Below, in pieces: positions 26,283-52,747 of a stretch of 64,000 nt of DNA (its first letter is position 1; each line of letters starts with the position of its first letter). Location of the stretch: NCBI RefSeq assembly GCF_038069945.1, contig NZ_JBBPEV010000001.1:1-64000 (forward strand), given 5' to 3'. The translations under genes and the position numbers were made by a program. The notes below the pieces were generated by a model, which saw only the letters and a program-made list of their open reading frames with translations, was not told the origin of the DNA and did no database searches. This DNA comes from Aquabacterium sp. A3 (GTDB taxonomy: Bacteria; Pseudomonadota; Gammaproteobacteria; Burkholderiales; Burkholderiaceae_C).

Positions 26283-26347
26283 GTGCTGACGCGAGGCCAG
26301 CACGGTCAATGAGGCAGGTGACGACTGCGACGCCGACGCAAGGTCGG
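26283..26347 (-). ncRNA. Conserved core with flanking hairpins, copy 1
   Basis: A hairpin GTGCTG/CAGCAC (26283-26288 with 26298-26303), nine bases, the 22-base core (26313-26334, containing ACGACTGCGACGCC), then a hairpin CCGAC/GTCGG (26333-26337 with 26343-26347). The same arrangement with different stem sequences occurs at 29174-29232 and 52187-52251. The strand is assigned from the downstream radC gene. It may correspond to the published radC RNA motif, which I recall by name but cannot align here. Confidence 0.6.
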
Positions 26348-26602
26348 GAGCGCATTCCGCGATGGAATGCAGGTAGCGGTGGGCAGTGTGTCGTGATGGT
26401 CAGAAGCGTTCAAGCCTTGATCGCTGCATGCCATGGACAAGGGGCCATGGAATCGGGGCATTGCGAAATGCAAGGCTTGGTGACAGCTGAATATCACCTG
26501 AAGTTCAGTACAGAAATCTTGTTTCAGTGGGTGGCCAAAGCCGTGACACGGGCCTGAAATTTCGCCAAGATGGCGACTCGCACCCATGCAACGAGCACGA
26601 CC

Positions 26603-26818
26603 ATGATCCGTTTTGGCCCTCACATCCGGCTCACTCGGCGAGAGACTGAGCGCTTCAAGCTGATCACCGATCTGGAGCCAGTCGGCATCCGCACGCTGCC
26701 TGACCTGGATGCCTACATCGCGCAATGCAAGGCGCACTATTGGGGCGTCTCCAGGGACACCCAGTTTCTGCATTGGCTGATCGACCGGGAGTACCAGCAA
26801 TGCCGTTCAGCGGCGTAG
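26603..26818 (+). CDS. Small hypothetical protein
   Basis: 71 residues from the ATG at 26603; an ATG 11 codons earlier is equally possible, and neither has a clear ribosome site. The protein is mixed charged/hydrophobic (for example R-x-T-R-R-E-T-E-R-F-K, then H-W-L-I-D-R-E-Y) and looks like a real small globular protein, but no family is recognised. It is the only forward-strand candidate inside a reverse-strand series, so it would need its own promoter. Confidence 0.45.
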   Translation: MIRFGPHIRLTRRETERFKLITDLEPVGIRTLPDLDAYIAQCKAHYWGVSRDTQFLHWLIDREYQQCRSAA

Positions 26819-26844
26819 CATGGAGCACGCCGCCTGGCGGTTCA

Positions 26845-27516
26845 TCAAGCAAAGACACGTGGCTCGATGGTGGCGCCGCGCATGAAGGCCAGGTAGGCAG
26901 CGGCCTTGCCGATGTCCGCGAAACAAGCGATGGCATCGCAGCCTCGCCTCACGGCCCATGGCAGGTCAGGGCATTCATTGGGCGACAGGCTCAAGTTGGC
27001 CTCGCGATAGGCTGGATGCCGATACGGCGTGTTGCCGGTCTGCCAGTCCACCAGGCACAGGATGCAGTCGGTCAAAATGGCGCCGCCACCTGACTCGCCA
27101 GGCTCGACCAGCAAGGGGATTTTGAGCATGCCGCCAGATCGGCCAATGCGGCCGACCACGCCATGCTCATCAAGCCACGGTTCACCCGTGGCCAGGTCGC
27201 CAAGTATCAGGCGGATCTTCTCGCCAGTTCGGCGATAGGACTCCAGCACCTTGGCCGCTTTGGGATCGGTCCCGGGCGCAAAGTAGGTGCGGTGGTTCAG
27301 TGGGGATCGGCCCCATGCGGCTGTGGCCGTCAGGTATTTCTGATAGCCCGCCAGCGTGGCGTAGTCGCCTGGCGCAAAGGCCAGGTGGCTTTGGTCGAGT
27401 TGCTGTGCGATCTGGTTGGCATGATCGCGAGCATTGCCAAAGCCAAAGCAACTGTGGCCTGATCGCTCCGTGATGACATAGAGCTTTTTTTCCAGGTTGA
27501 GTGTGACGGTGGTCAT
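26845..27516 (-). CDS. Hypothetical island protein
   Basis: 223 residues from an ATG with AAGGAATC upstream. It begins with a strand M-T-T-V-T-L-N-L-E-K-K-L-Y-V-I. A later stretch has LDQSHLAFAPGDYATLAGYQ, a segment G-R-S-G-G-M-L-K-I-P-L-L-V-E-P-G and LTDCILCLVDWQTGNTPYRH. No domain is recognised. It shares the AAGGAAT ribosome site and a G/C-rich hairpin leader (GGCCCGAGCGGC) with the next gene downstream of the series, which suggests common control. Confidence 0.7.
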   Translation of the reverse strand: MTTVTLNLEKKLYVITERSGHSCFGFGNARDHANQIAQQLDQSHLAFAPGDYATLAGYQKYLTATAAWGRSPLNHRTYFAPGTDPKAAKVLESYRRTGEKIRLILGDLATGEPWLDEHGVVGRIGRSGGMLKIPLLVEPGESGGGAILTDCILCLVDWQTGNTPYRHPAYREANLSLSPNECPDLPWAVRRGCDAIACFADIGKAAAYLAFMRGATIEPRVFA

Positions 27517-27601
27517 GAAGATTCCTTGTGTGGAAGCTTGGGGACGCACCGCCGCTCGGGCCGTGGCCCCGCAGGCGTGTTGTGTCGCTATCAGGTCGGT
27601 A

Positions 27602-27832
27602 TCAGCCTTGCGCGACCAACCGGATGGGGGGCTGATCGCAGACGCTGTCCACCACTTGGCTTTGTCGGAGGTGCTCCAGCTTCAGCAGCAGTGCATGGGC
27701 ATGTGCGCTGTCATCGCCTGCCAGGCCAGGCTGAAGGGCCTGCACTTCCTTGATCAGCAAGCACAGTTCCTGCACGATGGCCCGGTGGGCACGCTTCTCG
27801 ATGGCGCACAAGGCGTCGGTTGCAGTGGTCAT
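27602..27832 (-). CDS. Small helical hypothetical protein
   Basis: 76 residues, nearly all predicted helix (ALCAIEKRAHRAIVQELCLL, then AHAHALLLKLEHL). The ATG follows AAGGAATTTCCC. The leader on the reverse strand can fold as CCGCA/TGCGG enclosing TGCC-CGAG-TGGCA. It is unrecognised; size and position are typical of accessory genes in integrative elements. Confidence 0.65.
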   Translation of the reverse strand: MTTATDALCAIEKRAHRAIVQELCLLIKEVQALQPGLAGDDSAHAHALLLKLEHLRQSQVVDSVCDQPPIRLVAQG

Positions 27833-27972
27833 GGGAAATTCCTTCCGTGGGTGTGCCGCACTGCCACTCGGGCAGATGCGGGCGAAATGGGGGAGGACGC
27901 GGCATGCACCACCAGCAGATGGGCAGGCGCGTGGGTCGATCTGGGCAGGGCCAGGGCGCTGGCCCCGGCACG

Positions 27973-27994
27973 GTCAAGACGCGGTGGTCTTGAC
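27973..27994. terminator. Strong hairpin between two small genes
   Basis: GTCAAGAC (27973-27980), six-base loop, GTCTTGAC (27987-27994): a perfect 8-bp stem just after the stop of the 28005-28511 gene. No T-run follows on the reverse strand, so it may weaken or process the transcript rather than end it. Confidence 0.5.
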
Positions 27995-28004
27995 GTGCGG
28001 GGAA

Positions 28005-28511
28005 TCAGGCTGTTTGAGACACAGCATTGGGCTTTGACGGCTCTCCCGACGTGGCGGATGGCGCGTCCTTGGGAACAGGAGCTTGAGCTTCAAAAGACGA
28101 TTGAGCCTGGGCAAACTCCGGCGCTTTCTTCAGGCGCTTGACTTGGGTTGCTGCCGGTTCGTTGGCCGTGGGTGGCAGGCATTCAACGGCGATGTCGCCG
28201 CCTTGGCGCAGCATGTGGCGAAGCGCCAAAGCTGGCGCAACAAAAACGCCATGGAACAGCCAACGCACGAACTGACCGATGCGCCTGTTGCGTGCAGCCG
28301 AGGCTTTGTGTGTGCGCAAGGATTGCTTACAGCACAGGTACAAGGCCAGGTGGTTACTCTTCATCAGCGGATCAGCTTCCAACTGAGCCATGACTTCGGC
28401 GGCCATGACGGGGTCCTGGCCCACACGGCGGTAAAAGCCCATCCAGGCGCGAGACTCTTCAATCTCGACACAGCTGCGTTTTGGGCGAACGCGGGACGCT
28501 TCATGGTTCAT
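28005..28511 (-). CDS. Hypothetical island protein with central hydrophobic segment
   Basis: 168 residues from an ATG at 28511 preceded by TTTTGGAG. The N-terminal part is basic and charged (RVRPKRSCVEIEESRAWMGF), followed by a helix-rich region and a hydrophobic segment F-V-R-W-L-F-H-G-V-F-V-A-P-A-L-A-L, then a Pro/Ala/Lys-rich tail with many polar residues that looks disordered. No family is recognised. A hairpin leader lies directly upstream (28532-28580). Confidence 0.7.
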   Translation of the reverse strand: MNHEASRVRPKRSCVEIEESRAWMGFYRRVGQDPVMAAEVMAQLEADPLMKSNHLALYLCCKQSLRTHKASAARNRRIGQFVRWLFHGVFVAPALALRHMLRQGGDIAVECLPPTANEPAATQVKRLKKAPEFAQAQSSFEAQAPVPKDAPSATSGEPSKPNAVSQTA

Positions 28512-28531
28512 GGTGTGAACTCCAAAAAGGA

Positions 28532-28580
28532 GGAGGGCACACCTATCCCGGTGGGGAGACGGTGGACTCCCCAAAGGGTT
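28532..28580 (-). promoter_or_regulatory. Hairpin leader of the 28005-28511 gene
   Basis: GGGGAG (28553-28558) pairs with CTCCCC (28567-28572), enclosed by CCC (28547-28549) and GGG (28576-28578). GGAG at 28532-28535 could compete for CTCC. It resembles the leaders before radC and before the gene at 28990 in position and in its G-rich/C-rich blocks. Confidence 0.5.
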
Positions 28581-28813
28581 GTGTGGAAGTGCAGCACAGC
28601 CGAATGGCCGGGGCACATGAAAGACGGTTCACATCCCATGAAGTCGAGGGCTCCCGATCAATCGGGCTTGACTTCAATGGGATGCGAACGCGGGTGAACA
28701 CAAGTTGGGCGAAACCGGGGAGGTCTACGCGTCATTTCGTGTTCGACCCGAACTGCGGGCGAGGTCAATCGCCACGGTATCGATGTGCTGATGCTGGACC
28801 ACAGTCAAGTGGT

Positions 28814-28990
28814 TCAGGCGGCAGCACGGTAAGCCATGACCTGTTCGACCTGTCGCGAGACAGGCGGCGCAGGCTTCAGCAATGCGGGTAGCACTGCAGG
28901 ACTGATCACAGGCTCGCGGGCAAGCCCGGAGCCACCCAACAGCACGCAAATGGCGCGCGTTTCCCTTGTCGCATGAGGGCATGCGTTCAT
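28814..28990 (-). CDS. 58-residue hypothetical protein
   Basis: The ATG at 28990 has AAGGAG with a six-base spacer. The frame runs M-N-A-C-P-H-A-T-R-E-T-R-A-I-C-V-L-L-G-G and ends in V-M-A-Y-R-A-A-A followed by TGA. The middle is Pro/Ala/Leu-rich (ISPAVLPALLKPAPPV). No family is recognised. The strong ribosome site and a leader with the same architecture as that of radC support it as a real gene, the first of the reverse-strand series that runs to 25264. Confidence 0.55.
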   Translation of the reverse strand: MNACPHATRETRAICVLLGGSGLAREPVISPAVLPALLKPAPPVSRQVEQVMAYRAAA

Positions 28991-29013
28991 GACGTTCTCC
29001 TTCAGGGTGTGAA

Positions 29014-29062
29014 GGGGAACGCCTCGTCCCGATGGGGAACATGGTGGTTCCCCAACTTGGGA
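29014..29062 (-). promoter_or_regulatory. Pseudoknot-like leader of the 58-residue gene
   Basis: GGGGAAC (29014-29020) pairs with GTTCCCC (29047-29053), interleaved with TCCC (29027-29030) and GGGA (29059-29062), as in the radC leader. A second GGGGAAC (29034-29040) competes for the same GTTCCCC, so two exclusive folds exist. Compared with the radC copy, CGGGAAC/GTTCCCG has changed to GGGGAAC/GTTCCCC on both sides, which keeps the pairing. Confidence 0.6.
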
Positions 29063-29173
29063 TGCTTCAGCCTTGGCGGTTGAAGCGGCTCGGCGGCGGC
29101 ACGGTGAGGTGCGCCGATGACACGGTGTTCAGCATGAGGGCTGAACGAGGCACAAGGCCAGGGACATGGCCGA

Positions 29174-29232
29174 GCTGAACCGAGGTTCAGCTTCTACAAG
29201 GCAGGTGACGACTGCGACGCCAGCAAAGCTGG
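29174..29232 (-). ncRNA. Conserved core with flanking hairpins, copy 2
   Basis: Hairpin GCTGAAC/GTTCAGC (29174-29180 with 29185-29191), eight bases, the 22-base core (29200-29221, identical to copy 1), then hairpin CCAGC/GCTGG (29220-29224 with 29228-29232). Stem sequences differ completely from copy 1 while pairing and spacing are kept. It lies about 210 bases upstream of the 58-residue gene. Confidence 0.6.
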
Positions 29233-29416
29233 ACTTCAGGGAGACCTAGATCTCCATTGAAGGCTGCGTGAACGCGATGTCCACAGGTAGCCCTTTCAGT
29301 CTGCTGGAGAGATGGTGCCAAATCAACATGACTTGAGCCTCACGGCGTGTTATCCATGCGAAGAAGCCCCCCAAATCCCGTCGATTGACGGTGGCGTTGT
29401 CCACGCATGCATGCGC

Positions 29417-29890
29417 TCATGGCACCAGCAAGTCGGTTGATCTGTGGCCGCTACCAAGCCCGACACCCACCCAGACATTGGAGATACCGATGATTAGAAA
29501 CACCATGGGATTGGTCTTGTTGTCTGTGATGTCCAGCCAGCTTCTGATGTCGGTTGATGAAGGCGTTGGCAGGTGCTCTGGATGCGTATGCCACTCCCCG
29601 AGGTAGTCCATCTTCTGGCCGCTTTCAGTCCATTTCCTGACGGCCATGGACTGGTGGTACGACTCCTTACGGTGGAATCCAAAGCGGCTCCGGCGATCGT
29701 GTGGATGGGGCTCGGTGGCGTCAACAACATGCAGGTGCTCTCCTCGACGGTATCCCAAGAGGATTCCACCCGACTCAGGGTCTCGGGGTCGCAGTTGCTT
29801 GTAGATGGACAGACGAGCGAGAACTTTGGGCTCAATGAGAACCCGTGCCTCAGTGCTACCGTACGGCTGGGATCGCAACATCATTGGCAC
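29417..29890 (-). CDS. cap3: CBASS Cap3-type JAB/JAMM deconjugase
   Basis: 157 residues. The JAMM zinc-protease motif is complete: E39 in ESGGILLG, then H101-T-H103-x7-S111-x2-D114. Cap3 proteins remove conjugates that the E1/E2 protein Cap2 attaches to the CD-NTase, and so balance cyclase activity. It is the last gene of the capV-cdn-cap2-cap3 operon and overlaps cap2 by 35 bases. The GTG at 29890 or the ATGs at 29884/29881 could be the start; translation is probably coupled to cap2. Confidence 0.9.
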   Translation of the reverse strand: MPMMLRSQPYGSTEARVLIEPKVLARLSIYKQLRPRDPESGGILLGYRRGEHLHVVDATEPHPHDRRSRFGFHRKESYHQSMAVRKWTESGQKMDYLGEWHTHPEHLPTPSSTDIRSWLDITDNKTNPMVFLIIGISNVWVGVGLGSGHRSTDLLVP

Positions 29891-31565
29891 CGCACGCTGG
29901 GCAGGCAGCCAGGCGGGTGAGATCCTGGTTCTTTACTTCGAACACGTCGGCGCTCGCAACTGAGCGGGTGCGAAACCGGGGGCTTGGGCTATCGCGCTGC
30001 AACCAGTCAAGGATGGTTTCAGTGGCCAATGTCGCGGCATGCATCGGCGCCGCAACACCATATGGTGTAAAGCCGGTGCACCCGATGAGTCTGCGCACGG
30101 GGTCCTCTTTAAGGACCTTGAATCTTTCTTCTCTGTAGTTCTTGTGATCTGCCAAGCGCAGGCACCGGAAGCATCCCCCTTTGCTGCTTTGAACCCAAAG
30201 CGTCTGAACAGTCTGCCCATTCCCTTTGATCCACGCGTGCAACAAAGGTGTTTTCGTCGCCTCGGCAATTCTGCGGGCATTGAGAAACTCGCTCACAGAC
30301 TCTTCGCCAGTGGCATCGATCACCAAATCGGCGGAGAACAAGGCAGGAACGCCACGGACGTCAGTCGGACTCGCGTCAATGGTGGAGAAAGGGAACTGGC
30401 GAACAAGTTCATCACGCAAGGCGGTCGCCTTGGATTTGAACAGTGCCGGATAGCCCAACACATGCCTTCCGATGTTCTCCGGTTTGAGTTTGTCGGGGTC
30501 GATCAACGTCAACTTTCCACCATTGGCTCCAGCGCCAAGTCGAACCAGAGATAGAGCGACATAGGAGCCAATCGCACCGCACCCCACAACCTTGATCTGC
30601 CGGCCGCTGAGGTCCTTGAAAGTCAAGTTTCGACTGTGGACGAACGCAGGCCCGAACTCCGAAATGGACAATCGCATGATGCCGCGTGTGCCGCCTTTGC
30701 CGTGGAGGTGCTGTTTGTAAAGCCGCGGCTTCTTGATGGCGCCCAGCCGTTGGACTTGGTCGAGATCGAAGCCGAATCCGAGCCAGCCGATGGGCGTTTT
30801 TACGGCAAAGGTCGCTTGCTTGTATTCGAGGTATCGGGGCTCCTTCTCCAGGATGCGCTGAACGCCGTTCGAGATGCCCTTGTCCCACGCCTTTAGCCAG
30901 GCGAATAACGCTTTCACGGTTGATGGCATGACATCAGGCACAACAGGAAGCACGTCGGTTTGGAACAGCCAGCACGGGCAGGTTGTCTTTTCGGGAGCTG
31001 AAGCACCGAGTGCTCCAGAGAAGGCAGCAACTTCCTTTTCTGAGTCTGCGATCAATGCGGTCGGCACGCCGTTGATGTCGACGAGCCAGTAGTTGGTACA
31101 GGTGGCACCGGGTGCGACGGTGCCAATGAGCACATCCCAGATGGCCGTCGATTGGCCATTGAGCCAATGCACCATGAATTCGTCTTGGATGTCGCCCCTG
31201 CGATAGTCGGCATCAAAGCGGATTTGTTCAAGTACCAGCTTGGCCTGGTCAAGACACTGAGCGAGTGCTTCAGCTGGGTTGTAGCGATCAAGGACAACTG
31301 ATCCTGCTGCAAAGTAGCAAAGCCATCCTTCGGCAGTCAGGTGCGGAACGAGGGGAGGGAAACCGTCGGTGCCATCGAGCACGATGATCGATGGATAACG
31401 CAGAAAGTCCCAGTCCGTGATGCTCAGCCGAACGCGCACATTGCCACCACGGCAAGGCAAATCGCCCTCAAAAGAACGCGTGCCAGCACGGTTGCCTGCA
31501 GGCTCAAAGCCACGCGTGCGAAGCAACCGCAGGGCGTCGGTCAGCTGCGCATCATTCGGGGTCAT
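29856..31565 (-). CDS. cap2: CBASS Cap2-type E2-E1 fusion conjugating enzyme
   Basis: 569 residues. An N-terminal E2-like domain carries a candidate catalytic Cys at 83 (AEGWLCYF). A linker domain is followed by an E1/ThiF adenylation domain with V-V-G-C-G-A-I-G-S (residues 326-334), DPDKLKPENIGRH, and a candidate E1 Cys at 496 (IGCTGFTPYG). CxxC pairs at 465/468 and 555/558 probably bind zinc. Cap2 joins the C-terminus of the CD-NTase to target molecules and primes it for signal synthesis. Its ATG overlaps the last base of the cdn stop (TGATG), and the cyclase ends in glycine as a Cap2 substrate should. Confidence 0.92.
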   Translation of the reverse strand: MTPNDAQLTDALRLLRTRGFEPAGNRAGTRSFEGDLPCRGGNVRVRLSITDWDFLRYPSIIVLDGTDGFPPLVPHLTAEGWLCYFAAGSVVLDRYNPAEALAQCLDQAKLVLEQIRFDADYRRGDIQDEFMVHWLNGQSTAIWDVLIGTVAPGATCTNYWLVDINGVPTALIADSEKEVAAFSGALGASAPEKTTCPCWLFQTDVLPVVPDVMPSTVKALFAWLKAWDKGISNGVQRILEKEPRYLEYKQATFAVKTPIGWLGFGFDLDQVQRLGAIKKPRLYKQHLHGKGGTRGIMRLSISEFGPAFVHSRNLTFKDLSGRQIKVVGCGAIGSYVALSLVRLGAGANGGKLTLIDPDKLKPENIGRHVLGYPALFKSKATALRDELVRQFPFSTIDASPTDVRGVPALFSADLVIDATGEESVSEFLNARRIAEATKTPLLHAWIKGNGQTVQTLWVQSSKGGCFRCLRLADHKNYREERFKVLKEDPVRRLIGCTGFTPYGVAAPMHAATLATETILDWLQRDSPSPRFRTRSVASADVFEVKNQDLTRLAACPACGANDVAIPAVR

Positions 31566-32737
31566 CAGCCAGCCGTGGTGGCTCTGACGATCGGGCGGCT
31601 GACCTCACGAGCAGGCACGCTTCTCACCGCATCATTGCCGCTGTCTGGCTCGATCAGATCGGTCCGCATTGGGATGCGCAAACCAAGTTGGCTTTGGATG
31701 ATGTCGATGGCATCACCCGGCGCGTGCAAGGGCTTCAGCCGCGCCGCCTGAATTTGCTGCGCCAGGGTGATGGCCATGGCTGAAGCCTCTTCCCGTTGCG
31801 CCGGATTCAAGCGCTTGTTGAAGTCTTCCTTGCCTTCGTCAATGCCTGGCGCACGGATGTCTCCGCGCAAAGCGTTGGCGAGGGTCTTGGCCGCCGCCTC
31901 CAAAGCCAGATCGTCACGACCACGGATCGCTTCGAACTTCTGTGCGACGGCAACCATGATGCAAACGGACGTGGGCCCATCGCCAGCTTTCCAATGCAGG
32001 TCACGCCAAGCCTTGAGGTAGCAACACACCCGGCGCAGCTGATCGGTATGTTCCTTCAGGCGGTCAAGGAACCACTTCGAGACAGCTTCAGGGTCTGATG
32101 ATTTCCATTCGCCAGACCGCGTCGCCATGACGATGTGATCCAGGTCGGCCCACTCTTGTTCTGCGATCTCACCGAACGCCGCATTCTCAACCAGGGCACC
32201 ACGCGCCGAGTCAAGCGTCAACTGAGCGGAGAAGGACTTTTCCAGGATCGTCGCGAACTCTGCTTCAGGTGCAGCGTACAAAGGGATATCGATGTGCGCC
32301 CAGTTGTTGATCTGGATCCTGATGCAGGTGTCCTTGCCGGTGATCAGCTCCCAACCCTTGTCCGTGCAAAGGTCCGCCAGCAGTTTCTCCACCAGCGTAA
32401 AGTAGAGCTTCGCCATCTTGTGCGGCGGGCCATTGTCTTCCCAAACCGTGACCGGCAAGTACACACCGAAGTCCCAATCCATTTCCTGGGGTGGCTGCCA
32501 TGCTGGCTGGATGCAGGTCCTATACGACCAGGAGCCTTGGGTGCGGAATTTGGGGTCGACTGCCTTGTCCATGCCGAGCACGGCTACTGTCGCCGCTCGA
32601 ATGCGTGGCCGCAGATGATCCCGAATGTCGTTCTTGGCCTGAACCAAGGTCTCCCGTTGATGTGGGGTGGGGGCGAGGCGATCGATGAAGACATCGGTCT
32701 CGGAAGTGGCGAACAGCAGTCGATTGAGTTTCAGCAT
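31565..32737 (-). CDS. cdnA: DncV-like CD-NTase (cyclic dinucleotide synthase)
   Basis: 390 residues. The active site is visible: G68-S69 in QGSWSYRT, D87-x-D89 in EMDWDFGVYLP, and D150 in WAHIDIPLY. The spacing and the QGS...D-x-D-x-G-x-Y-x-P pattern match Vibrio cholerae DncV, which makes 3',3'-cGAMP. The C-terminus ends in R-A-T-T-A-G, with the terminal glycine needed for conjugation by Cap2. It lies 12 bases after capV and overlaps cap2 by one base. The exact nucleotide product cannot be read from sequence; the patatin effector favours cGAMP. Confidence 0.92.
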   Translation of the reverse strand: MLKLNRLLFATSETDVFIDRLAPTPHQRETLVQAKNDIRDHLRPRIRAATVAVLGMDKAVDPKFRTQGSWSYRTCIQPAWQPPQEMDWDFGVYLPVTVWEDNGPPHKMAKLYFTLVEKLLADLCTDKGWELITGKDTCIRIQINNWAHIDIPLYAAPEAEFATILEKSFSAQLTLDSARGALVENAAFGEIAEQEWADLDHIVMATRSGEWKSSDPEAVSKWFLDRLKEHTDQLRRVCCYLKAWRDLHWKAGDGPTSVCIMVAVAQKFEAIRGRDDLALEAAAKTLANALRGDIRAPGIDEGKEDFNKRLNPAQREEASAMAITLAQQIQAARLKPLHAPGDAIDIIQSQLGLRIPMRTDLIEPDSGNDAVRSVPAREVSRPIVRATTAG

Positions 32738-32749
32738 GAGGGACCCCGG

Positions 32750-33781
32750 TCAAGGAGTTGCGTGTTCGCCGTGATAAAAGACTGACTTGGGTGGCGAGTG
32801 TTCCAAGAAAGCCAAGAGGCGTGGGTCACTGATGCATCGTTTCGAGCGCTCAATGGCGGCGCCGAGCAGCACCTCACGCGCGTGAGCATCGGCCTTGTCA
32901 AGTGCGACTGCACGGGCACGCTCATCGAACAGGTCATCATCAATGCGCAGGTATCGGCTTTCCAGCCGGTGCTCCAGCATCTTGTCGGTCAGCACCTCTT
33001 GTGCGGAGATGGACAATCCAAAGAGCCTCTTGGGCATGTTGCTGGGGTTCCAGCCACCCCAGTCGTAGGCGCCACCTTGCCGGTTGTGCCGAGGGTCAAC
33101 GGTGAACTTCGACGACATCGTCCCGATGCTCAGCATGCGGATGTGCTTGATATCTCTACCGAAGAAATGCTGCGATTCATGGAGCGCGAGCAGTCCCGGT
33201 GAGTTCGCGAACAACCCACCATCGACATACTGCCCCCCATTGAAGACATGACGCGGGAAGTAGGCCGGCGCCGCACTGGTTGCAAGCCCGATGTCCACCA
33301 AGCGATGTTTGTGGTCTCGTTTGAACATGGGGTGATGCCCCGTCTTGAAGACAACAGGCTCACCCGTTGTGTAGTTGATGGAGGGGACCATCACAGGGTG
33401 AAGGCAAGCGCCCAGGAGTCGGTCGCCAAAGACTTCGGGGGCCTCAAGCTGCGCCTTGAGCGATGCAGGCGAATAGGGGGCGCGCACCATTCCCAGAAAA
33501 GACCAGCGCTTCTTGAAAATTTCCTCGCCATGCTTGACGAAGAGGTCAACCATCGTTTGCGCCGGGATTTCCAAGGCGAGGGCCAGCGCCAAGATGCCGC
33601 CGATCGAGGTGCCCGTGATCAGATCGAACTTGGATGCGATGGGCCCCTGGAGCTCTTGCTCGATGTCTGCAAGCACTTTTGCCGTGTACAGGCCTCTGTA
33701 GCCGCCGCCTGAAAGCGCAAGGACTTGAAATGCCTTGTTTTGATCTGGCTGCGACGCTGAACAGGGGGCAGGTGCTGACAT
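32750..33781 (-). CDS. capV: CapV-like patatin phospholipase effector
   Basis: 343 residues. Patatin motifs in order: oxyanion loop GGGYRG (residues 25-30), nucleophile G-T-S59-I-G, and the Asp of the dyad in D187-G-G-L-F-A-N-S-P. CapV is a membrane-degrading effector that is switched on by 3',3'-cGAMP from a DncV-type cyclase and kills or stalls the infected cell. It is the first gene of the four-gene operon, the same order as in the Vibrio VSP-1 island. The reading start at 33781 has only a weak ribosome site. Confidence 0.92.
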   Translation of the reverse strand: MSAPAPCSASQPDQNKAFQVLALSGGGYRGLYTAKVLADIEQELQGPIASKFDLITGTSIGGILALALALEIPAQTMVDLFVKHGEEIFKKRWSFLGMVRAPYSPASLKAQLEAPEVFGDRLLGACLHPVMVPSINYTTGEPVVFKTGHHPMFKRDHKHRLVDIGLATSAAPAYFPRHVFNGGQYVDGGLFANSPGLLALHESQHFFGRDIKHIRMLSIGTMSSKFTVDPRHNRQGGAYDWGGWNPSNMPKRLFGLSISAQEVLTDKMLEHRLESRYLRIDDDLFDERARAVALDKADAHAREVLLGAAIERSKRCISDPRLLAFLEHSPPKSVFYHGEHATP

Positions 33782-33853
33782 GAGGTGTACTTGTGGCAGG
33801 CGCTATTTAGTGTCTGAGTGGGGCGAAAAACACTACAGGTAGCGTTTTATCAC

Positions 33854-33882
33854 ATTTTCCATGTGGATTTATACAGTGTCAA
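33854..33882 (-). promoter_or_regulatory. Candidate promoter of the type II CBASS operon
   Basis: On the reverse strand a perfect -35 TTGACA (33882-33877), a 17-base spacer and GAAAAT (33859-33854). It lies about 70 bases before capV. CACAT (33851-33855) and ATGTG (33861-33865) form an inverted repeat over the -10 that could be an operator. The region is shared with the divergent hsdM gene. Confidence 0.5.
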
Positions 33883-34024
33883 GTCTCCGGGGCTCTCGCC
33901 CAGCGATTCCGAGCTTTTAGGCGTTGCTGTATCGCGCAGCCGCCAGACATTCAGTGATCCAATCGAGCCTTGGCTCGGTGGAAAATCATGCCCATCGCGA
34001 TTTCCCCCGATTTCCCAGGTATTT

Positions 34025-36430
34025 ATGGATCACGCAGCACATAACAAGATCGTCTCGTTCATCTGGTCCATTGCAGATGACTGCTTGCGCGACGTTTTTG
34101 TACGGGGCAAATACCGTGACGTGATCCTGCCCATGTTCGTTCTGCGCCGCCTGGACTGCTTGCTTGAGTCGAGCAAGGCGGGTGTGCTCGAAGAAGTGCG
34201 GTTCCAGCAAGAAGACGCGGCGATGGCTGATCTGGACCCGCATGGCCTGCGCGATGCGTCTGGCTACGTCTTCTACAACACCTCTAAATTCACGCTCAAG
34301 AGCCTGCTGGGCAACCCGTCCCAACTGGAGGCCAACCTCAAGAACTATCTGGACGGGTTTTCGGACAACGTGAAGGAAATCGTCGACAAGTTCGACTTGC
34401 GCAACCAGATCCGCAAGATGGCGCAGTCCGACGTGCTCCACGACGTCATCGAAAAATTCGTCTCCGAAGAAATCAACCTCAGCCCGGATGATCGCAAGGG
34501 CCCGGATGGCCGCGCACAGCCTGGCTTGTCCAACCTGGGCATGGGCTACGTGTTCGAAGAGTTGATCCGCAAGTTCAACGAAGAGAACAACGAAGAGGCC
34601 GGTGAACACTTCACGCCGCGTGAGGTCATCAAGCTGATGACGAACCTGGTGTTCATCCCCGTCAAGGATCAGCTTCCCAACCCGCTGACCATTTACGACC
34701 CCGCTTGCGGTAGCGGTGGCATGTTGACCGAGTCCCAGGACTTTGTGACCGACCCAGAAGGCGAGATCAAGGCCAAGGTGGGCGTCTTCTTGTACGGCAA
34801 GGAGGTCAACCCCGAGACCTATGCCATCTGCAAGTCCGACATGATGATCAAGGGCAACGACCCCGAGAACATCCGCTTTGGCTCCACGCTGGCCACCAAC
34901 GATTTCTCTGGCAAGCGCTTCGACTTCATGTTGACGAACCCGCCCTACGGCAAGTCATGGAAGAGCGACCAGAAGAGCATTGTTGAAGGCAAGGAAGTCA
35001 TTGACCACCGCTTCCAGGTCAACCTGTCCGACTACACGGGCGAGCGCTTTGATTTTTACCCGGCCATCCCTCGCTCCTCAGATGGCCAGCTGCTGTTTCT
35101 GATGGAGATGGTGGACAAGATGAAGCGCCGTGCCGACAGCCCTGTGCGGTTTGCCGGCTCGCGCATTGCATCGGTCCACAACGGCTCGGCCCTGTTCACA
35201 GGTGATGCAGGCAGTGGCGAGAGCAACATCCGCCGCCACCTGATCGAGCGCGATTACCTCGAAGCCATCATCCAGCTGCCCAACAACCTGTTCTACAACA
35301 CCGGCATCACCACCTACGTGTGGCTGCTCACGAACAACAAGCCTGCCAAGCGCCAGGGCAAGGTGCAGTTGATCGACGCTTCCAACCTGTTCCAGAAGCT
35401 GCGCAAGAACCTGGGTGAGAAGAACTGCGAGTTCACTGACGAGCACATTGAGCAGATCACCCAGCTGTACCTGACCATGCCGGCGGATGGCATCTCGAAG
35501 GTCTTCCACAACCGGGACTTCGGCTATTACAAAGTCACGGTGGAGCGCCCATTGCGATTGGCGGCCCAGTTCACACCCGAGCGCATGGCCACCTTGCGCT
35601 ACACGCCGGGCATGCAGGAGATCATGGAATGGGTGCACGGCAAGTATGGCGAAGAGGTCTATACCGGCCTGCAGGCCCATGCCGAGGCCATTGAGAACCA
35701 CCTTGAGCGCGAAGAAATCACCCTTTCGCCCAAGAGCCGCAAAGAGCTGTTGTCTGAGACCACCTGGCTGGCGCAGCGATCCATCATGCAGGCCGCTCAG
35801 CAATTGGCTGGGGTGATCGGCAGTGCGGAGCACCTTGATTTCAATGTGTTCGAAGCCCTGGTGGACGATGCCATCAAAGCTGTGGGCCTCAAGCTTGCTG
35901 CGAACGAGCGCAAGCAGATCCTGAACGCCGTGAGCTGGCGAGACCCGCGCGCAGCCAAGGTGATCAAGAAGCGACACCAGCTCACCGCAGCCAAGCTCAA
36001 GGACTTGTTGGCCGAACTGAAAACCACGGCCGACAAGCTGGCCGACCATGGCTATTGGCCTGCAGAGGTGCAGGCCGCCGCTGAAGCCAAAGGCGGCAAG
36101 AAAGCGGCCAAGGCGGGCGAGTACATCGAGTACGAGCCCGACAGCGAGTTGCGCGACACCGAAAACGTGCCGCTCTCACTGGACGCCAGCCTGCCCGCCT
36201 CTGGCGTCATCCATGATTACTTCATCAAGGAAGTGCGCCCTCATGTGGACGAGGCCTGGATCGCGCTGGACAAGACTGTCATCGGCTATGAAATCAGCTT
36301 CAACAAATACTTCTACCAGCACAAGCCATTGCGCAGCCTGGAAGCGGTAACCCAGGAAATCCTGGCCCTGGAGGCCGAGACGGATGGCCTGCTCAAGGCC
36401 TTGGTGGCTTTTGTGGGGGCAGGGGCATGA
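34025..36430 (+). CDS. hsdM: Type I restriction-modification DNA methyltransferase subunit
   Basis: 801 residues from the ATG at 34025 (MDHAAHNKIVSFIW); the frame is open 69 codons further upstream, but that part does not resemble HsdM. The N-terminal HsdM helical domain is followed by the SAM motif DPACGSGGM (near residue 224) and the N6-adenine motif NPPYG (near 304). It methylates adenine in the target chosen by HsdS. The C-terminal 250 residues are longer than in classical HsdM (about 530) and resemble the extended M subunits found with small HsdR proteins. First gene of hsdM-yhcG-hsdS-hsdR. Confidence 0.93.
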   Translation: MDHAAHNKIVSFIWSIADDCLRDVFVRGKYRDVILPMFVLRRLDCLLESSKAGVLEEVRFQQEDAAMADLDPHGLRDASGYVFYNTSKFTLKSLLGNPSQLEANLKNYLDGFSDNVKEIVDKFDLRNQIRKMAQSDVLHDVIEKFVSEEINLSPDDRKGPDGRAQPGLSNLGMGYVFEELIRKFNEENNEEAGEHFTPREVIKLMTNLVFIPVKDQLPNPLTIYDPACGSGGMLTESQDFVTDPEGEIKAKVGVFLYGKEVNPETYAICKSDMMIKGNDPENIRFGSTLATNDFSGKRFDFMLTNPPYGKSWKSDQKSIVEGKEVIDHRFQVNLSDYTGERFDFYPAIPRSSDGQLLFLMEMVDKMKRRADSPVRFAGSRIASVHNGSALFTGDAGSGESNIRRHLIERDYLEAIIQLPNNLFYNTGITTYVWLLTNNKPAKRQGKVQLIDASNLFQKLRKNLGEKNCEFTDEHIEQITQLYLTMPADGISKVFHNRDFGYYKVTVERPLRLAAQFTPERMATLRYTPGMQEIMEWVHGKYGEEVYTGLQAHAEAIENHLEREEITLSPKSRKELLSETTWLAQRSIMQAAQQLAGVIGSAEHLDFNVFEALVDDAIKAVGLKLAANERKQILNAVSWRDPRAAKVIKKRHQLTAAKLKDLLAELKTTADKLADHGYWPAEVQAAAEAKGGKKAAKAGEYIEYEPDSELRDTENVPLSLDASLPASGVIHDYFIKEVRPHVDEAWIALDKTVIGYEISFNKYFYQHKPLRSLEAVTQEILALEAETDGLLKALVAFVGAGA

Positions 36431-38837: not shown

Positions 38838-38851
38838 AAAAGGGATGCAAT

Positions 38852-41809: not shown

Positions 41810-41825
41810 GCGGCCTTGTCATCAC

Positions 41826-42719: not shown

Positions 42720-42793
42720 GCCAAAACCTGGCCTAGGCGCGCAGCGCAAGTATTTGCCAGTGTTCTGGTGTCGATGTCATCTTGGAGTTCTTG

Positions 42794-44478: not shown

Positions 44479-44505
44479 AGTTATCCCCAGTTTTTGTGGA
44501 TAACT
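44479..44505. terminator. 8-bp inverted repeat after the helicase gene
   Basis: AGTTATCC (44479-44486) and GGATAACT (44498-44505) are exact reverse complements around an 11-base loop containing TTTTT. It lies just past the stop of the reverse-strand helicase gene and 240 bases after the SEFIR-like gene, so it could end both transcripts. The right arm includes TGTGGATAA, identical to a DnaA box. Confidence 0.45.
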
Positions 44506-44519
44506 CTTGGCCCGGCAGT

Positions 44520-47924: not shown

Positions 47925-48227
47925 CGAAGGACCTCGTCGGTGAATATCGGCGCGTACTTACAGCGTGTCCTGACCGATCAAGGGTGGGCGATCTGCGCGC
48001 GTGGCAACCAGACCGAAACAGTGGAAATGGTACAGCGCTTCAAGCCAGGGCTGCGGCCCTAAGTCCCTTGTGGATCGATGGGGGGAGGGGGCTTGATTGT
48101 TTGGGGGCGGTGCTTGGTGGGGCCCGTAGAGGGGCAAGTTCACGACCTTGATTTCAGCGGGCCGGATGAGATTCTGAATGCATGGACACGCACAAGGCAT
48201 GTCCCTCAACCGTGCAGGAGCCCCCCA
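47925..48227. other. Divergent intergenic region, helicase / ParB-like gene
   Basis: 303 bases with no supported gene. It contains the start region of the reverse-strand helicase and the promoter region of the ParB-like gene. A G-rich run (about 48077-48125) and the hairpin GGACA...TGTCC (48184-48205) precede the ParB-like start. No clear -10/-35 pair was assigned. Confidence 0.5.
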
Positions 48228-50278
48228 TGAAATTCACCAAGGCAGAGATCGATGCCGTGATTGCAGCATCCCCCCGTACCACCGCGCCCTTGAACAAGCT
48301 GGTGCTGTCGGCAGACCATCAGGTGCGCCCAGGCGGCAGCACCAGCAAGATGAGCATCGCCGAGTTGGCTGCGTCCATCCTGGACTGCGGCGTGTTGCAG
48401 AACCTGATCGTCATCAAGGGCCTGCGTGGCCTGTTTGAAGTGTGCGCCGGTGGCCGTCGCCTGGAGTCGCTGAATTTGCTGATGAGCAACGGCGACATCC
48501 CTGACAACTACCCCGTGCCCATCCTCATCGTGCCTGCCGACAAGGCGCTGATGGCCAGCCTGTCCGAGAACATCTTCCATGTGCCCATGCATGCCGCCGA
48601 CGAGTACCTGGCCTTCTCGCGCCTGTTGGGCGAAGGCAAGTCCGTCGAGACGGTGGCTGCGGCCTTTGGGGTCACCCCCCTGGTGGTCAAGCGCCGCATG
48701 AAGCTGGCAAGCGTGTCGCCCAAGCTGATGGACGAGTTCCGGGTGGATGACATCAGCCTGGAATGCCTGATGGTGCTGGCCTCGGTCGATGACCACGAAA
48801 AGCAGGAACAGGCCTGGGCTGGCTTGCCGCAATGGAACCGCCGCCCCGACTACTTGCGGCAATTGCTGACGCAGGGCGACATCGAGTCCGACCGTGACCC
48901 GGTGGCGAAGTACGTGACGCTCAAGACCTACGAGAAGGCAGGAGGGGTCACACGCCGTGACCTGTTCAGCGACGATGACAAGAAAGCTTACCTGTTGGAT
49001 GCGCCGTTGCTGGAACGTCTGGCCGTGGAGAAACTCAACAAGAAGGCCAAGCAGGTGCGTGCCGAGGGCTGGAAGTGGGTGGACGTGCGGGTGCGCTATG
49101 ACCGTGACGAGTACACCGGCCACACCGAGTTGCGCAAAGTACGGCGCGAACCCACAGAGCAAGAGGCCACTGCGCTGGCGGACCTGGAAGCTGCGATGCA
49201 GGCAGTGCAACAACGCATGGAGGTGCTGGACGACATGGACGGCGATGACGCGGACCAGGGTGACGGCGCGGCATACCAGGAGCTTGAAAGCGAGCAAGCA
49301 GCCTTGCAACTGCGGCTCAAGGCCCTCAACGACGAACTGAGCGTGTGGCCCGCTGACCTGATGGCACAGGCCGGGTGCGTGGTCCACGTGGGGCACAACG
49401 GCGCGGCCACGGTGAAATGTGGCCTGATCCGCCCGGAGGACCGCAGTGCCGTGGCCCATGTCCTGACGCAGGGCGCTGGGCAGGCAGGTGAGGGCGGTGC
49501 ACAAGGGGACATGCTGTCCGGCCCACCGGCCAAGGTTCGCCCGGTTTACTCCGACAAGCTGATGCGCCGCCTGACGGCACATCGGGTCGCCGCCGTGCAG
49601 GCCGAGTTGATTGCACGGCCTGATGTGGCCTTGGTCGCGCTCACGGCTCAGTTGGCCCAGAAGCTGTTCCTGAGCCGCGACTACCGCTACCACCAGCAGC
49701 CACAGGTGCTGGATGTCTCGGTCACGGACAGCCAGTCTGCGCTGCAATCCGCTGCCGATGACATCGAGGCCTGCCCGGCATGGTTGCGCATGGAGGCTGA
49801 GCGCAGCGCCTGGGCGCAGAAGTTGCCGCAAGACTTGGATGCCGTGTTCCCTTGGCTGCTGGCACAAGATCAAGCCACGGTGCTCCAACTGCTGACCGTG
49901 GTGGTGGCGTGCTCGGTCACCGGCATTCAGGGCGTGGAGTCACCCACCCAACGCACCGATGTGTTGGCAGAGGCCTTGGGTCTGGACATGCGCCGCTGGT
50001 GGACAGCCAATGGCCCTTCCTACCTGAACCATGTGTCCAAGAGCCGCGTGGTGGACGTGGTCACCGAGGCGGTGGACATCAACGCGGCAGCGCCGCTGGC
50101 AGGTATGAAGAAGGATGCCGCCGTGGTGGCCGCTGAGTTGGCCTTGGCGGGCTCCGGTTGGTTGCCTCCATGCCTGCGGGGTCAAGCTGCCTCGGTTGCG
50201 ACGATAGGCGAAGGCGGGGCTGCCACCCTGGACGATTCCCATTCTGAGGTCGATGAACTCGCGGAGTCAGCGGCCTGA
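48228..50278 (+). CDS. parB: Large ParB/Spo0J-family protein of mobile elements
   Basis: 682 residues, about twice the size of chromosomal ParB. The N-terminal ParB nuclease-like/CTPase fold has M-S-I-A-E-L-A-A-S-I, G-L-F-E-V-C-A-G-G-R-R-L-E-S-L and S-L-S-E-N-I-F-H-V-P-M-H, the expected boxes of the family; a helix-turn-helix (V-E-T-V-A-A-A-F-G-V-T-P-L-V-V-K-R-R) follows. The long C-terminal part is acidic then helical, and unassigned. The ATG has GCAGGAG upstream. No ParA gene is adjacent. Proteins of this architecture are typical of integrative elements and large plasmids, where roles in replication or maintenance are suspected. Confidence 0.85.
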
Positions 50279-50339
50279 GGCTCACAGAGCTTTTCCGACC
50301 AACCCGGCGCAGGCAAGGGCACTGCGCCGTTGGCGTTGG

Positions 50340-51533
50340 TCACGCCCGCTCTGGCGGCGCGTCGTCCATGCCATCCGCATCACGTGATCCAGGATGGCGC
50401 TGCACTCGCACCGCACCAAGGTAGGCCCCCGAAGCGCGTATGCGCGCATGCCCGGCCAATCTGGACACGGATTGCCTGGCCTGACGGTCAAGTTCCGGTG
50501 GCACCATCTGCCCGCCACGCACCGGGGGTGGGGTTCCTACAAGGGCCTCATAGTGACCGATCAACACCTCATGGCGCAGGCCGTGGGCGGTCACCCCGCG
50601 TTCGCGCACGGTGATGCCGAACTTGGTCAACACGTAGTCAAAGTGCCTGAGGTTCTTGCGCAGGTCATGGGCGGGGTTGCCCATGTGGGCATCCTGGCTG
50701 CTGACCACGCCCTGCGCGAATGCTACGGCGGCAAGCCGCGCAGGGCTGTCCAGCGGGATGTGGCGCACCCGGCCTCCCTTGCCCTTGATCCTGGCGTACC
50801 GATCAGCCAACTTGTCCTCGGGCGGCAGGCCCGTGGACTCGAAGGGCACGACGCTCTCAAACGGCCGAAACAGCACCGATTCCTTGCGGCGCAGGCCCAT
50901 GGCGCGGATCAATCGCAACGAAGCCCCCACAAAGCGGTCGTGGTCACAGACCTGGGTGATCAAGGCGTCGATGTCCACCCCATTTGCCGACCAACCTTTG
51001 TCCCGGCTGGCGTACTCATGGCGCTGGTATTCGTCAACGCTCAGGCCGTAGTGGTCCGGTGATCGCACGAAGCCATGCTTGCCCATCCACATGGCCAGGC
51101 CTCGCAGAAAGCTCAGGTAGGTCTGGATCGTCGCCGGGGCCAGGTGCTCCTGCTGCCAGACCTGCACCATGGCCCGGATGTGCTTTTGCCCCAGGTTGCG
51201 CGGGTCAGGCACCGTCTTGAACCCGGCCTTTGTCTTCAAGTCCCGAAAGAATCGGCGCAGGAACTGGGCGCGCTCTTGCCGTGTCTTGTGTGAGACTGTC
51301 TTGGCCATCGAGGTGTGCAGGGCGTTGAACAGTTCGATCAACACTTCCAGCACCTTGAGCGGTGGCGTCTTGCCCGTGGGGTAGTGGGCAAGGATGTCCT
51401 GGGGTGACTTGCCCGCCCAGCTTTGACGGCGTGCGGGCTGGTGCTGGCTTGAGCGTCCAGGGCTGGATGCTTCCTGAACCCGGCTCCGTGATGATCTGGG
51501 CCTTGTGGATCGAGTGATGGATGAGTCAGACAT
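50340..51533 (-). CDS. int: Tyrosine recombinase (integrase)
   Basis: 397 residues. Catalytic residues are in place: R215 in GLRRKES, a lysine in the beta-hairpin G-K-G-G-R-V-R-H-I-P-L, H317-x-x-R320 in AHGLRHE, H362 in GHARIR and the nucleophile Y371. The N-terminal 70 residues are basic and disordered; the core-binding SAM-like domain follows at about 75-170. It likely moves the element carrying it. It is 9 kb from the putative guaA attachment site, and is convergent with the ParB-like gene. No excisionase is adjacent; the Gp3-like protein at 11659 is a candidate. Confidence 0.88.
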   Translation of the reverse strand: MSDSSITRSTRPRSSRSRVQEASSPGRSSQHQPARRQSWAGKSPQDILAHYPTGKTPPLKVLEVLIELFNALHTSMAKTVSHKTRQERAQFLRRFFRDLKTKAGFKTVPDPRNLGQKHIRAMVQVWQQEHLAPATIQTYLSFLRGLAMWMGKHGFVRSPDHYGLSVDEYQRHEYASRDKGWSANGVDIDALITQVCDHDRFVGASLRLIRAMGLRRKESVLFRPFESVVPFESTGLPPEDKLADRYARIKGKGGRVRHIPLDSPARLAAVAFAQGVVSSQDAHMGNPAHDLRKNLRHFDYVLTKFGITVRERGVTAHGLRHEVLIGHYEALVGTPPPVRGGQMVPPELDRQARQSVSRLAGHARIRASGAYLGAVRVQRHPGSRDADGMDDAPPERA

Positions 51534-52747
51534 GATGTGTGCCCATGGTCAAGGGCCCGCCGCCCGAACAGCGGGTTGGTCGTGAGTGAAGGTGGAATCC
51601 CATGGAGATCGCCGATGGCGCGGATTCCGTCGCCCCATCGGGTCGTGGTCAAGCATTCAGCGCCGCACGCGACCACGACAGGTGCGGCGCCTACCCAAAG
51701 GTTTGTCGGTCGGTGTGCCTGCGTTGATGCATCGACACCGGCCAACTCGGTCTTTCTTAAAAACGAAACGGGTGATCCGTCCCAGTCGTGCATTTCTGCA
51801 GCCGTGGGGTTGGTGATGCCGGTTTGCCTCTGGGGCATGGACGGCATCGGCGCGGAGGTCTGGCCTCACGCGTCTGTGGTGGATCAGTTCTGGATTCGGA
51901 GCGCCATCCACTCGCATGGGTCCACCCCTGACCGAAAATCCAGGGCGGTGCCGAGTTCATGAGCGAGGTCGCACGGGGAGCCTAAAGAGGCAAACACAAC
52001 CGTGCGGTGCGCCGAGGCGCAGGCTCAAGGGATGGCGGGAACAGCGGTTCAGCATCGGGTGCCGACTGCGTGCTCGAAGACCGTGGCGCGTTTCAGGAAC
52101 GCCCAACTCAGGGAGTTGGCAGGGCCATCGGTGCATGCACTGCGAAGAAGACCTCAGGGCCAGCACCTCAGGGGCGATGGCGAATTCCGGTTCAAGGACC
52201 GGAGCTTGGAGGGCAGGTAACGACTGCGACGCCTTTTGCTCCATCGGGAGCAGAGCCAGGACGGCTCTCGGGAATCTGTAGTGGAATCGCCGGGGGCCCT
52301 TAGGTCAAGGACCACAGCCGCAATGGCCCACATAGCCGGGCGTTTGAGCGTGGCGAACTAGGGGCGCGCAACATGCCCTTGAGTCGTGCTTATTTACTGA
52401 TAGGGCTCAAGCGCCAGACAGCCCGTGGGCTTGACATCAAAAAATCCTGCCTCTGGTTCCCAACACAGGTTCTCGATGGGCTGAGATGGACATCGACGGC
52501 GCCTGCCTCGGGCGTGGCGAGAGGGGTTGACGAGTGTCATTCGAATGAGAACGTGGTGACACACGCGACCCCAGAACCCAGAGCCCGAAGGTTTGGCAAC
52601 AGGCCAATGTCATTGCGGCGCATGCGGGCTGACAGTGAATCTGCACCGATGCCGAAATCGGGTGTTCTGAGTCGGGGTTTGCCGTGGCGGGATCGTGTCA
52701 GCTTGCTGATGCTGATCGCTCATGAACCCACGCCTTGGAGGCTCATC
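51534..52747. other. 1.2-kb non-coding region between integrase and parM-like genes
   Basis: Open frames exist on both strands but none has a ribosome site and family-like sequence. The stretch holds copy 3 of the conserved core-plus-hairpins element (52187-52251), a hairpin CCCGC/GCGGG before the integrase, and the leader of the parM-like gene. Its size and position make it a candidate replication, partition or transfer site, but no iterons were recognised. Confidence 0.5.
52187..52251 (-). ncRNA. Conserved core with flanking hairpins, copy 3
   Basis: Hairpin CCGGT/ACCGG (52187-52191 with 52198-52202), nine bases, the 22-base core (52212-52233, one base different from copies 1 and 2), then hairpin GCTCC/GGAGC (52238-52242 with 52247-52251). 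If read in the same orientation as the other copies it lies 650 bases upstream of the reverse-strand integrase gene. Confidence 0.55.

Follow-up and report, generated by a model that had tools for sequence, protein, structure and literature searches.

Three repeats in an Aquabacterium genomic island are most likely copies of one folded RNA at the start of several of its mRNAs

The first 64,000 nucleotides of contig NZ_JBBPEV010000001.1 from Aquabacterium sp. A3 (hereafter the window, meaning this whole stretch) contain three copies of a 22-base core, GGCAGGT[G/A]ACGACTGCGACGCC on the plus strand, each set between hairpins. We conclude that these repeats are most likely copies of one folded RNA that stands at the start of several mRNAs of one mobile element, where it would act as a shared control tag for the element's genes. 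Copies in this and related genomes precede radC, small open reading frames (ORFs), recombinase genes and alpA genes of one MobH-bearing element that resembles an integrative and conjugative element (ICE).

An earlier note on this DNA had reported three 22-base copies, the third with one base changed, and had named a hairpin on either side of each; copies and hairpins all lie where it placed them (Table 1). The 14-base core matches exactly three times in the window, at 26321, 29208 and 52220 on the plus strand, and six times with up to two mismatches against 0.96 expected, a number that none of 100 shuffles reached. Across the 3.83-Mb genome, GGCAGGTRACGACTGCGACGCC with up to two mismatches finds only the three window copies, and the reversed pattern finds nothing at the same tolerance. 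A fourth, divergent genome copy lies at C5:26274-26295, two mismatches from the form with NN at core positions 8-9. No other place in the genome could supply an antisense partner for the core, at up to two mismatches over the 22-mer. The spacing proposed for the hairpins recurs among relatives: among 124 contexts, with near-duplicates kept in and letter shuffles as control, a plus-strand Watson-Crick stem of at least five pairs ends 5-11 bases before the core in 76 (shuffled 10.3, maximum 20), and such a stem starts 0-6 bases after it in 43 (shuffled 10.1, maximum 19).

Structured RNA tolerates G-U pairs, and the same pairs read as A-C on the opposite strand. On the plus strand, again with near-duplicates kept in, single A-C pairs in the stems number 32 upstream and 55 downstream of the core (shuffled 10.4 and 18.4), and G-T pairs 10 and 27 (about 10 and 22 in shuffles). 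On the minus strand of 68 non-redundant elements there are 29 G-U pairs against 11.4 in shuffles (maximum 19) and 10 A-C pairs against 11.1 (maximum 18); other odd pairs in this count, for example CC 14, GG 14 and TC 10, come without a control. Because the odd stem pairs there are G-U rather than A-C, we read the element as an RNA of the minus strand, the strand of radC, and sequence comparison supports a structured RNA with the core GGCGUCGCAGUCGNNACCUGCC. The layout in the earlier note is corrected in three respects: its hairpin positions stand but the RNA runs on the minus strand; its core stands but the boundary moves, the RNA core's first two bases (the last two of the plus-strand 22-mer) being part of the neighbouring stem in two of the three copies; and its two hairpins are joined by a further stem and a promoter-like pair further 5′.

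Grouped by flanking DNA, 136 elements fall into 20 types, and 68 of them are non-redundant (19 of type 0 and 49 others); left out before the 68-element counts were two types taken as chance (L079, Spirochaetaceae, and L089, Myxococcales), two elements with short flanks and 64 near-duplicates. The set requires GGCGT[CA]...GCC, so the genome's own fourth copy (L053) and L022 stand outside it. Reading 5′ to 3′, stems P1 and P2 come first, then the core, itself a hairpin (GCAG-UCGNNAC-CUGC), and then P3. The 3′ arm of P2 ends on core base 2 with at least four pairs in all 49 non-redundant elements outside type 0, a length for which no shuffle was made; with at least five pairs it does so in 42 of the 49, against a shuffled mean of 11.7 and a maximum of 21. 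Stems of at least five pairs end on core base 1 in 19 cases, and no other end position between -6 and 10 has more than 10. In type 0, P2 stops short of the core and leaves a four-base spacer, mostly AAAA (14 of 19 at core position -4). A P3 stem of at least five pairs starting 4-14 bases after the core is found in 40 of 68, compared with 7.3 in shuffles (maximum 13).

Covariation was scored within types for the named stems on MAFFT alignments and set against the shuffled mean and the best slid register. Alignment A2 (type 1, 35 rows) scores 0.299 against 0.150 shuffled and 0.104 slid; A3 (type 0, 26 of 34 rows), 0.153 against 0.102 and 0.108; and A4 (type 2, 21 of 25 rows), 0.255 against 0.143 and 0.061. 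Eight type 0 rows were omitted by hand, seven with differently arranged stems and L016 as nearly identical to others, as were four type 2 rows (L063, L092, L119 and L151; the similar L165 was retained). Most of the signal comes from P1 and P3, with P2 nearly constant within types 0 and 1. The covariation expected of a structured cis-regulatory RNA therefore exceeds shuffled and slid controls, though not every sub-measure does, and the leaders of copies 1 and 2 fold better than shuffles (z -4.8 and -5.4).

A covariance model also picked up copies that the exact pattern misses. Among them are five island copies (L058, L061, L067, L140 and L144) whose core stem reads GCGG...CCGC rather than GCAG...CUGC; their loop UCGNNAC is unchanged, and P2 still abuts the core. 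All five loci also contain a GCAG/CUGC copy, and no island locus in that match set has a half-changed core stem; a sixth GC case (L044) and the half-changed L034, L045 and L051, retrieved as weak pattern matches, are not counted here. Alignment A7 and model R2 include a few probable chance rows. Because copies in one island swap the core stem pair yet keep the loop, these results suggest that both loop and shape are recognised.

Upstream, TTGA-N21..23-ACT occurs in 21 of 21 type 0 elements, 12 of 24 of type 1 and 10 of 14 of types 2 and 10 together, against 0.1-0.3 in shuffles and with few at other spacings. The distance from the end of ACT to the core is 45-61 bases in types 0, 2 and 10 and 73-76 in type 1. 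All three window copies have TTGA-N22-ACT 46-76 bases upstream of the core, and the element is for that reason probably at an mRNA 5′ end; we infer that the pair functions as a promoter. Downstream, where 700 bases were available, an ORF start preceded by a Shine-Dalgarno (SD) sequence lies 122-350 bases away in 31 of 31 type 1 rows, 90-142 in 25 of 25 of type 2 and 84-86 in 4 of 4 of type 4; codon-position gene tests are uninformative in this GC-rich DNA. Type 2 precedes radC in the window and other types precede other genes. The claim that two copies lie 100-210 bases upstream of reverse-strand genes, one of them radC, holds, with core-to-start distances of 101 bases for radC and 209 for the second minus-strand ORF. 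Class II copies lie between an AcaB-like gene (L064, E 0.002, under cut-off; no such match in the neighbour of our genome's own class II copy) and an AlpA gene (3.5e-10), which is followed by a weakly matching helix-turn-helix/integrase-like gene and then DUF1173. Judged by sequence, promoter-like pair and start codons would make the element an mRNA 5′ leader.

The last 80 bases of 34 leaders (types 1, 2, 4 and 18) share four segments, A (GGGGAAC), A′ (GTTCCCC), A″ (GGYGTTCC) and B (GGAGAACRCC AUG). A can pair with A′ or with A″, and A″ with A or with B, the A″:B pairing covering the SD. The underlying alignment, A8, omits 12 rows, 11 in which no SD-start motif was recognised and one, of type 10, in which it lies too near the core, as well as near-identical rows. 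Pair 74:109 of A″:B is CG in 16 of 34 and UA in 10, and pair 33:47 of A:A′ is GC in 21 and AU in 9. Covariation of this platform is mixed: cells (21 against 8.8) and score (0.193 against 0.142) both exceed all shuffles, but pairs changed on both sides do not exceed the shuffled mean. No SD-hiding platform is seen in type 0.

On balance we favour a new family of cis-regulatory leader RNA, present in several copies per integrative, probably conjugative element, whose core would be recognised by a trans-acting factor and whose platform shift would set the operons together. The strand, the stems, the core hairpin, the promoter-like pair in types 0-2 and the placement before several operons of one island are supported by sequence comparison; platform switching and a common trans-acting factor are what we infer from it. 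Transcription would start just upstream of P1, and the nascent leader would form the stems P1 to P3, with P2 beside the core, as well as the core hairpin. The near-invariant loop, with GUC 5′ of the hairpin, would be the recognition site of one element-encoded trans-acting factor, a small ligand being less likely. Factor binding would then shift the platform between a form that combines A:A′ with A″:B, hiding the SD, and a U-tailed A:A″ hairpin, and so set the expression of radC, small-ORF and other operons jointly. The recombinase and alpA copies, which are without a platform, would act otherwise, for example through termination or RNA stability.

Several observations weigh against this reading. 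Within A2 and A3, P2 shows no covariation and further pair types do not rise above shuffles, A3 slid by +1 has 7 pairs changed on both sides against 6 unslid, and alignment rows share descent, so that shuffles overstate significance. In the platform, pairs changed on both sides number 3 against 3.7 in shuffles; the A:A″ form is weaker (0.199 against 0.163, reached by 3 of 500 shuffles, best slide 0.137); the A″:B pairing of copy 1, the radC leader, is poor (GGACGTTCC with GAAATCC); and class II copies, inspected by eye, show no platform. TTGA-N22-ACT occurs six times in the window against 4.54 expected, so that its placement alone is evidence; TTGA-N21..23-ACT is absent from 16 of 16 class II (alpA) elements and from all 4 of types 4 and 18; and a stricter sigma-70 scan gave no promoter in either stretch scanned. 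Among type 0 rows, 26 of 39 have no SD-preceded ORF of at least 40 aa within 700 bases, and the ORFs of the remaining 13 start mostly at 614-684. A NusG paralogue as the trans-acting factor was not found on the island: each of six genomes has one NusG gene, on another contig in five and, in G013, on the same contig but 1.6 Mb away.

As a candidate for the trans-acting factor, the protein encoded at 26845-27516 on the minus strand is a lead only. It is conserved in the islands and has no Pfam or NCBIfam match, and two PHROGs of unknown function match it. One of its five predicted models is confident (mean pLDDT 89.3; the other four 73-80), and its closest fold matches, to WYL proteins and Hfq, do not reach E ≤ 0.001, the best having E 0.08. 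The protein of 28005-28511 gives a helical model with a mean pLDDT of 68.6.

The same leaders could instead modify RNA polymerase so that it passes the terminators of the island's operons. Such processive antitermination would suit the probable 5′-proximal place in several operons of one element, the U-tailed hairpin before the radC SD and the long stretch before the recombinase, with its terminator-like hairpin at 51784-51764. We nevertheless think it unlikely, given that the six genomes have no element-encoded NusG paralogue and that terminator-like matches are little above shuffles (5 against 2.9; 2 against 0.8).

We give somewhat less weight, and equal weight to each, to two further RNA mechanisms. 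Translational riboswitches and protein-binding leaders combine a conserved upstream domain with a mutually exclusive downstream SD hairpin, and a riboswitch, with a small molecule bound by the near-invariant core and translation switched by the platform, would match the short invariant core, the variable stems and the mutually exclusive SD platform of types 1, 2, 4 and 18. However, the genes behind the element (radC, alpA, recombinase and small ORFs) belong to one island but to no common pathway, and between 84 and 350 bases separate core and start across types 1, 2 and 4. The element differs from those known leaders in its varying spacing and in that no such platform is seen in type 0 and class II. 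A 5′ stabiliser or processing site for RNase III or RNase E, with no specific sensor, agrees with the stems that three types have close to their probable 5′ end and would suit leaders both with and without a platform, but leaves the near-invariant loop bases UCG..AC unexplained.

That the core is a DNA operator or promoter motif, with incidental hairpins, is very improbable. A near-invariant 22-mer common to several promoters of one element does look operator-like, and ICEclc, the studied element of the BisDC group, has such a common motif of 27 bp, present in 8 of 9 bimodal transfer-competence promoters and treated as a promoter motif in PMC9286271. Our core, however, lies 45-76 bases downstream of the promoter-like ACT in types 0-2, and the one-strand G-U enrichment and the change from GCAG/CUGC to GCGG/CCGC call for RNA. 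Hardly credible at all is a DNA hairpin, whether a cruciform (the alternative that the earlier note had left beside a selected RNA structure, which the covariation upholds) or a single-stranded site for recombinase or relaxase: its island location and the tyrosine recombinase behind one copy would fit, but the tolerance of G-U pairs, and their enrichment, is confined to one strand, and class I copies share one orientation per contig with a promoter-like pair upstream.

The earlier suggestion that the repeats might be the radC motif of Rfam (RF01754; Weinberg et al. 2010, PMC2864571) did not hold. RF01754 has no match over its gathering cut-off in the window or in 31 related loci (sets of 18 and 14, L119 in both); its best match in our genome, E 0.41, is below cut-off, and it has none even at E ≤ 10 in 26000-29700 or 51800-52600. 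Its core, CCCAGGcAGCC...CUUCAAGGCU, is not that of our element, and its layout differs too; conversely, R2 finds no match at E ≤ 1 in the RF01754 leaders L183, L185 and L186. The two are nonetheless alike in several ways. Type 2 in the window lies upstream of radC, as the radC RNA does; RF01754 is likewise cis-regulatory (Rfam type) and multi-copy, with up to five copies per contig in one orientation per contig; and single-sequence folds of L183, L185 and L186 show a hairpin followed by an SD-covering hairpin before the start codon.

The genomic company of the two RNAs differs. Twenty-six RF01754 matches over cut-off fall in 4 of 12 genomes searched (G029, G436, G585 and G587), on seven contigs, and on six of these (G436 C24, G587 C9 and C4, G585 C4 and C5, and G029 C23; not G436 C25) a gene for DUF2857, the domain of BisC according to PMC7423338, lies 6-13 kb from the nearest copy; two more over-cut-off DUF2857 matches, on G436 C33 and G029 C18, are off the RF01754 contigs. 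Six genomes with our element (G000, G003, G012, G013, G016 and G363) have no DUF2857 match over cut-off, and the weak matches in four of them lie on other contigs or at a distance above 0.6 Mb; assignment to the BisDC regulon of ICEclc-type ICEs was rejected on this ground. Both RNAs occur in G029, on different contigs, a separation established for that genome only. This comparison suggests that the element parallels RF01754, as multi-copy leaders of different island families. Like our element, the ICEclc motif is common to most operons of one ICE (PMC9286271); that it equals the RF01754 core is a guess. As a tentative extension, large ICEs may each carry a family-specific leader RNA as a regulon address tag, our element serving islands of the MobH/PRTRC type and RF01754 those of the BisDC (ICEclc) type, each coupled to an SD-hiding platform, and the ICEclc motif would be the RF01754 core; part of ICE activation would then follow transcription start and work through an RNA-binding factor.

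The element is present in 21 of the genomes formed by our own and 60 relatives, all of one genus, and the reversed pattern matches none of them. A scan of one genome per species, whose organism counts are lower bounds, gave at least 120 stretches, mainly from Betaproteobacteria; most titles are Burkholderiales, Rhodocyclales or unplaced proteobacterial metagenome-assembled genomes (MAGs), and a few are Planctomycetales, Phaeospirillum and Silanimonas MAGs (with full context) or Spirochaetaceae and Myxococcales (taken as chance). With the relatives' loci these stretches make 127 distinct contexts. Under strict filters the second covariance model matches in 23 of 41 genomes of the genus and, among 250 genomes drawn from the order, only in our own and G114, and the first model, among 143 genomes from the class, only in our own. 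The pattern with up to two mismatches occurs in 17 of 399 genomes, 11 of which also match the reversed pattern at least once; most of these matches are attributed to chance for that reason. Matches with no mismatch among the 399 are in our own genome, G114 and G363. A phage or plasmid origin was rejected, no DNA similar to the copy 1 leader being found in plasmids or phages. Viral contigs hold no exact match to GGCAGGTRACGACTGCGACGCC and four to the GCGG/CCGC form (R2 E 0.00026 to 0.14), treated as probable chance because no abutting P2 stem is seen. Neither Rfam 15 (window and 31 related loci) nor the literature searched, mostly outside subscription papers, describes the element; a description may be in print elsewhere.

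The carriers appear to be one family of integrative elements with MobH relaxase, PRTRC_D/ParM-like, ParB-like and tyrosine-recombinase genes, and are probably conjugative. Of nine genomes selected for carrying the element, seven, with eight islands, have recombinase, elements and a MobH-type relaxase (PF07514) together on a single contig, within about 67-158 kb. The two others are G033 and our own genome, in which the three are spread over different contigs; the relaxase of our genome scores over the MobH cut-off, and a contig break is the simple reading, because the window begins at base 1 of its contig. Class I copies of one island keep a single orientation per contig in G001, G013, G017 and G033. 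Window genes matched in 10-33 of 120 related loci are the SbcC-like (22756-25242), radC, ParB-like (48182-50278), recombinase and PRTRC_D genes, a small gene at 53785 and uncharacterised genes at 25264, 26845, 27633 and 28005; the ORF ending at 27832 was searched in shortened form, its reading frame being open over 27605-27832. Cyclic-oligonucleotide-based anti-phage signalling system (CBASS) genes (ThiF/E2, DncV-like cyclase) and a type I restriction methylase gene lie between copies 2 and 3, at 29856-33781 (minus) and 33818-36430 (plus); they are matched in at most 2 of the 120 loci, and we regard them as variable cargo for that reason.

Table 1. Positions in the window of the three copies, their parts and the genes behind them
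Feature	Positions	Strand	Evidence
Copy 1 promoter-like pair TTGA-N22-ACT, 50 bases before core	26385..26413	-	Pattern match, type-wide test
Copy 1 stem P1 (GCATTCC...GGAATGC)	26352..26370	-	Covariation on A4; fold
Copy 1 stem P2 (CCGAC...GTCGG), 3′ arm ending on RNA core base 2	26333..26347	-	Covariation on A4, register test
Copy 1 core GGCGTCGCAGTCGTCACCTGCC, hairpin GCAG-UCGUCAC-CUGC	26313..26334	-	Pattern, covariance model
Copy 1 stem P3 (GTGCTG/CAGCAC)	26283..26303	-	Covariation on A4
Copy 1 platform region and start codon, as placed by alignment (26283-26288, at its 5′ end, shared with P3; platform helices 3′ of these bases)	26209..26288	-	Alignment, fold
radC-like gene (PF04002), GTG start 101 bases behind core	25630..26211	-	Pfam
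Copy 2 promoter-like pair TTGA-N22-ACT, 76 bases before core	29298..29326	-	Pattern match
Copy 2 stem P1, two-step (CTTCA/TGAAG and GGAGA/TCTCC)	29234..29262	-	Covariation on A2
Copy 2 stem P2 (CCAGC/GCTGG)	29220..29232	-	A2, register test
Copy 2 core	29200..29221	-	Pattern match
Copy 2 stem P3 (AGCTGAAC/GTTCAGCT)	29173..29192	-	Covariation on A2
Copy 2 platform and start codon	28988..29067	-	Alignment, fold
58-aa ORF behind copy 2; similar ORFs recur behind related elements; no Pfam match	28814..28990	-	
Copy 3 promoter-like pair TTGA-N22-ACT, 46 bases before core	52280..52308	-	Pattern match
Copy 3 stem P1 (AGAGCC/GGCTCT)	52252..52268	-	Covariation on A3
Copy 3 stem P2 (GCTCC/GGAGC), AAAA between stem and core	52238..52251	-	A3, register test
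Copy 3 core, one base different	52212..52233	-	Pattern match
Copy 3 stem P3 (CCGGT/ACCGG)	52187..52202	-	Covariation on A3
Gene for a tyrosine recombinase, 678 bases behind the copy 3 core and the first clear gene there	50340..51533	-	

Some further sequences near the copies deserve mention. Behind copy 3, at 51911-51933 on the minus strand and 278 bases behind the type 0 core, GGTCAGGGGTGGACCCATGCGAG stands with a CCCTG/CAGGG hairpin flanking it; loci of several genera have it too, but 19 of 42 type 0 rows do not (one row does not reach far enough for a decision), and it could be an attachment site or a second RNA. Class II loci (L104, L064, L076 and others) keep a block, ...TGACCTAGCGC...GAGCAGGTCATG..., 100-250 bases behind the core and before alpA, whose GCAGGT, judged by eye, could pair with ACCUGC of the core. 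Another SD-hiding hairpin, with changed letters (GGTGTG...CACACC), lies at the start codon 28511 (minus), before the gene 28005-28511; hairpins of this kind number two in the window against four expected from shuffles, so that the case rests on likeness to the platform. A long near-perfect hairpin at 28627-28689, between two island genes, has only a weak microRNA match (E 1). Ordinary RNAs also occur in the retrieved loci: FMN, nhaA-I and cobalamin, at L082 6610-6764, L084 3871-3930 and L150 5389-5589, respectively.

The RNA family added here is well supported and has a core hairpin, a probable promoter and, in some of its members, a translation platform. With it, the coordination of many operons by a mobile element becomes open to experiment, as does the question whether the common ICEclc motif acts as RNA.

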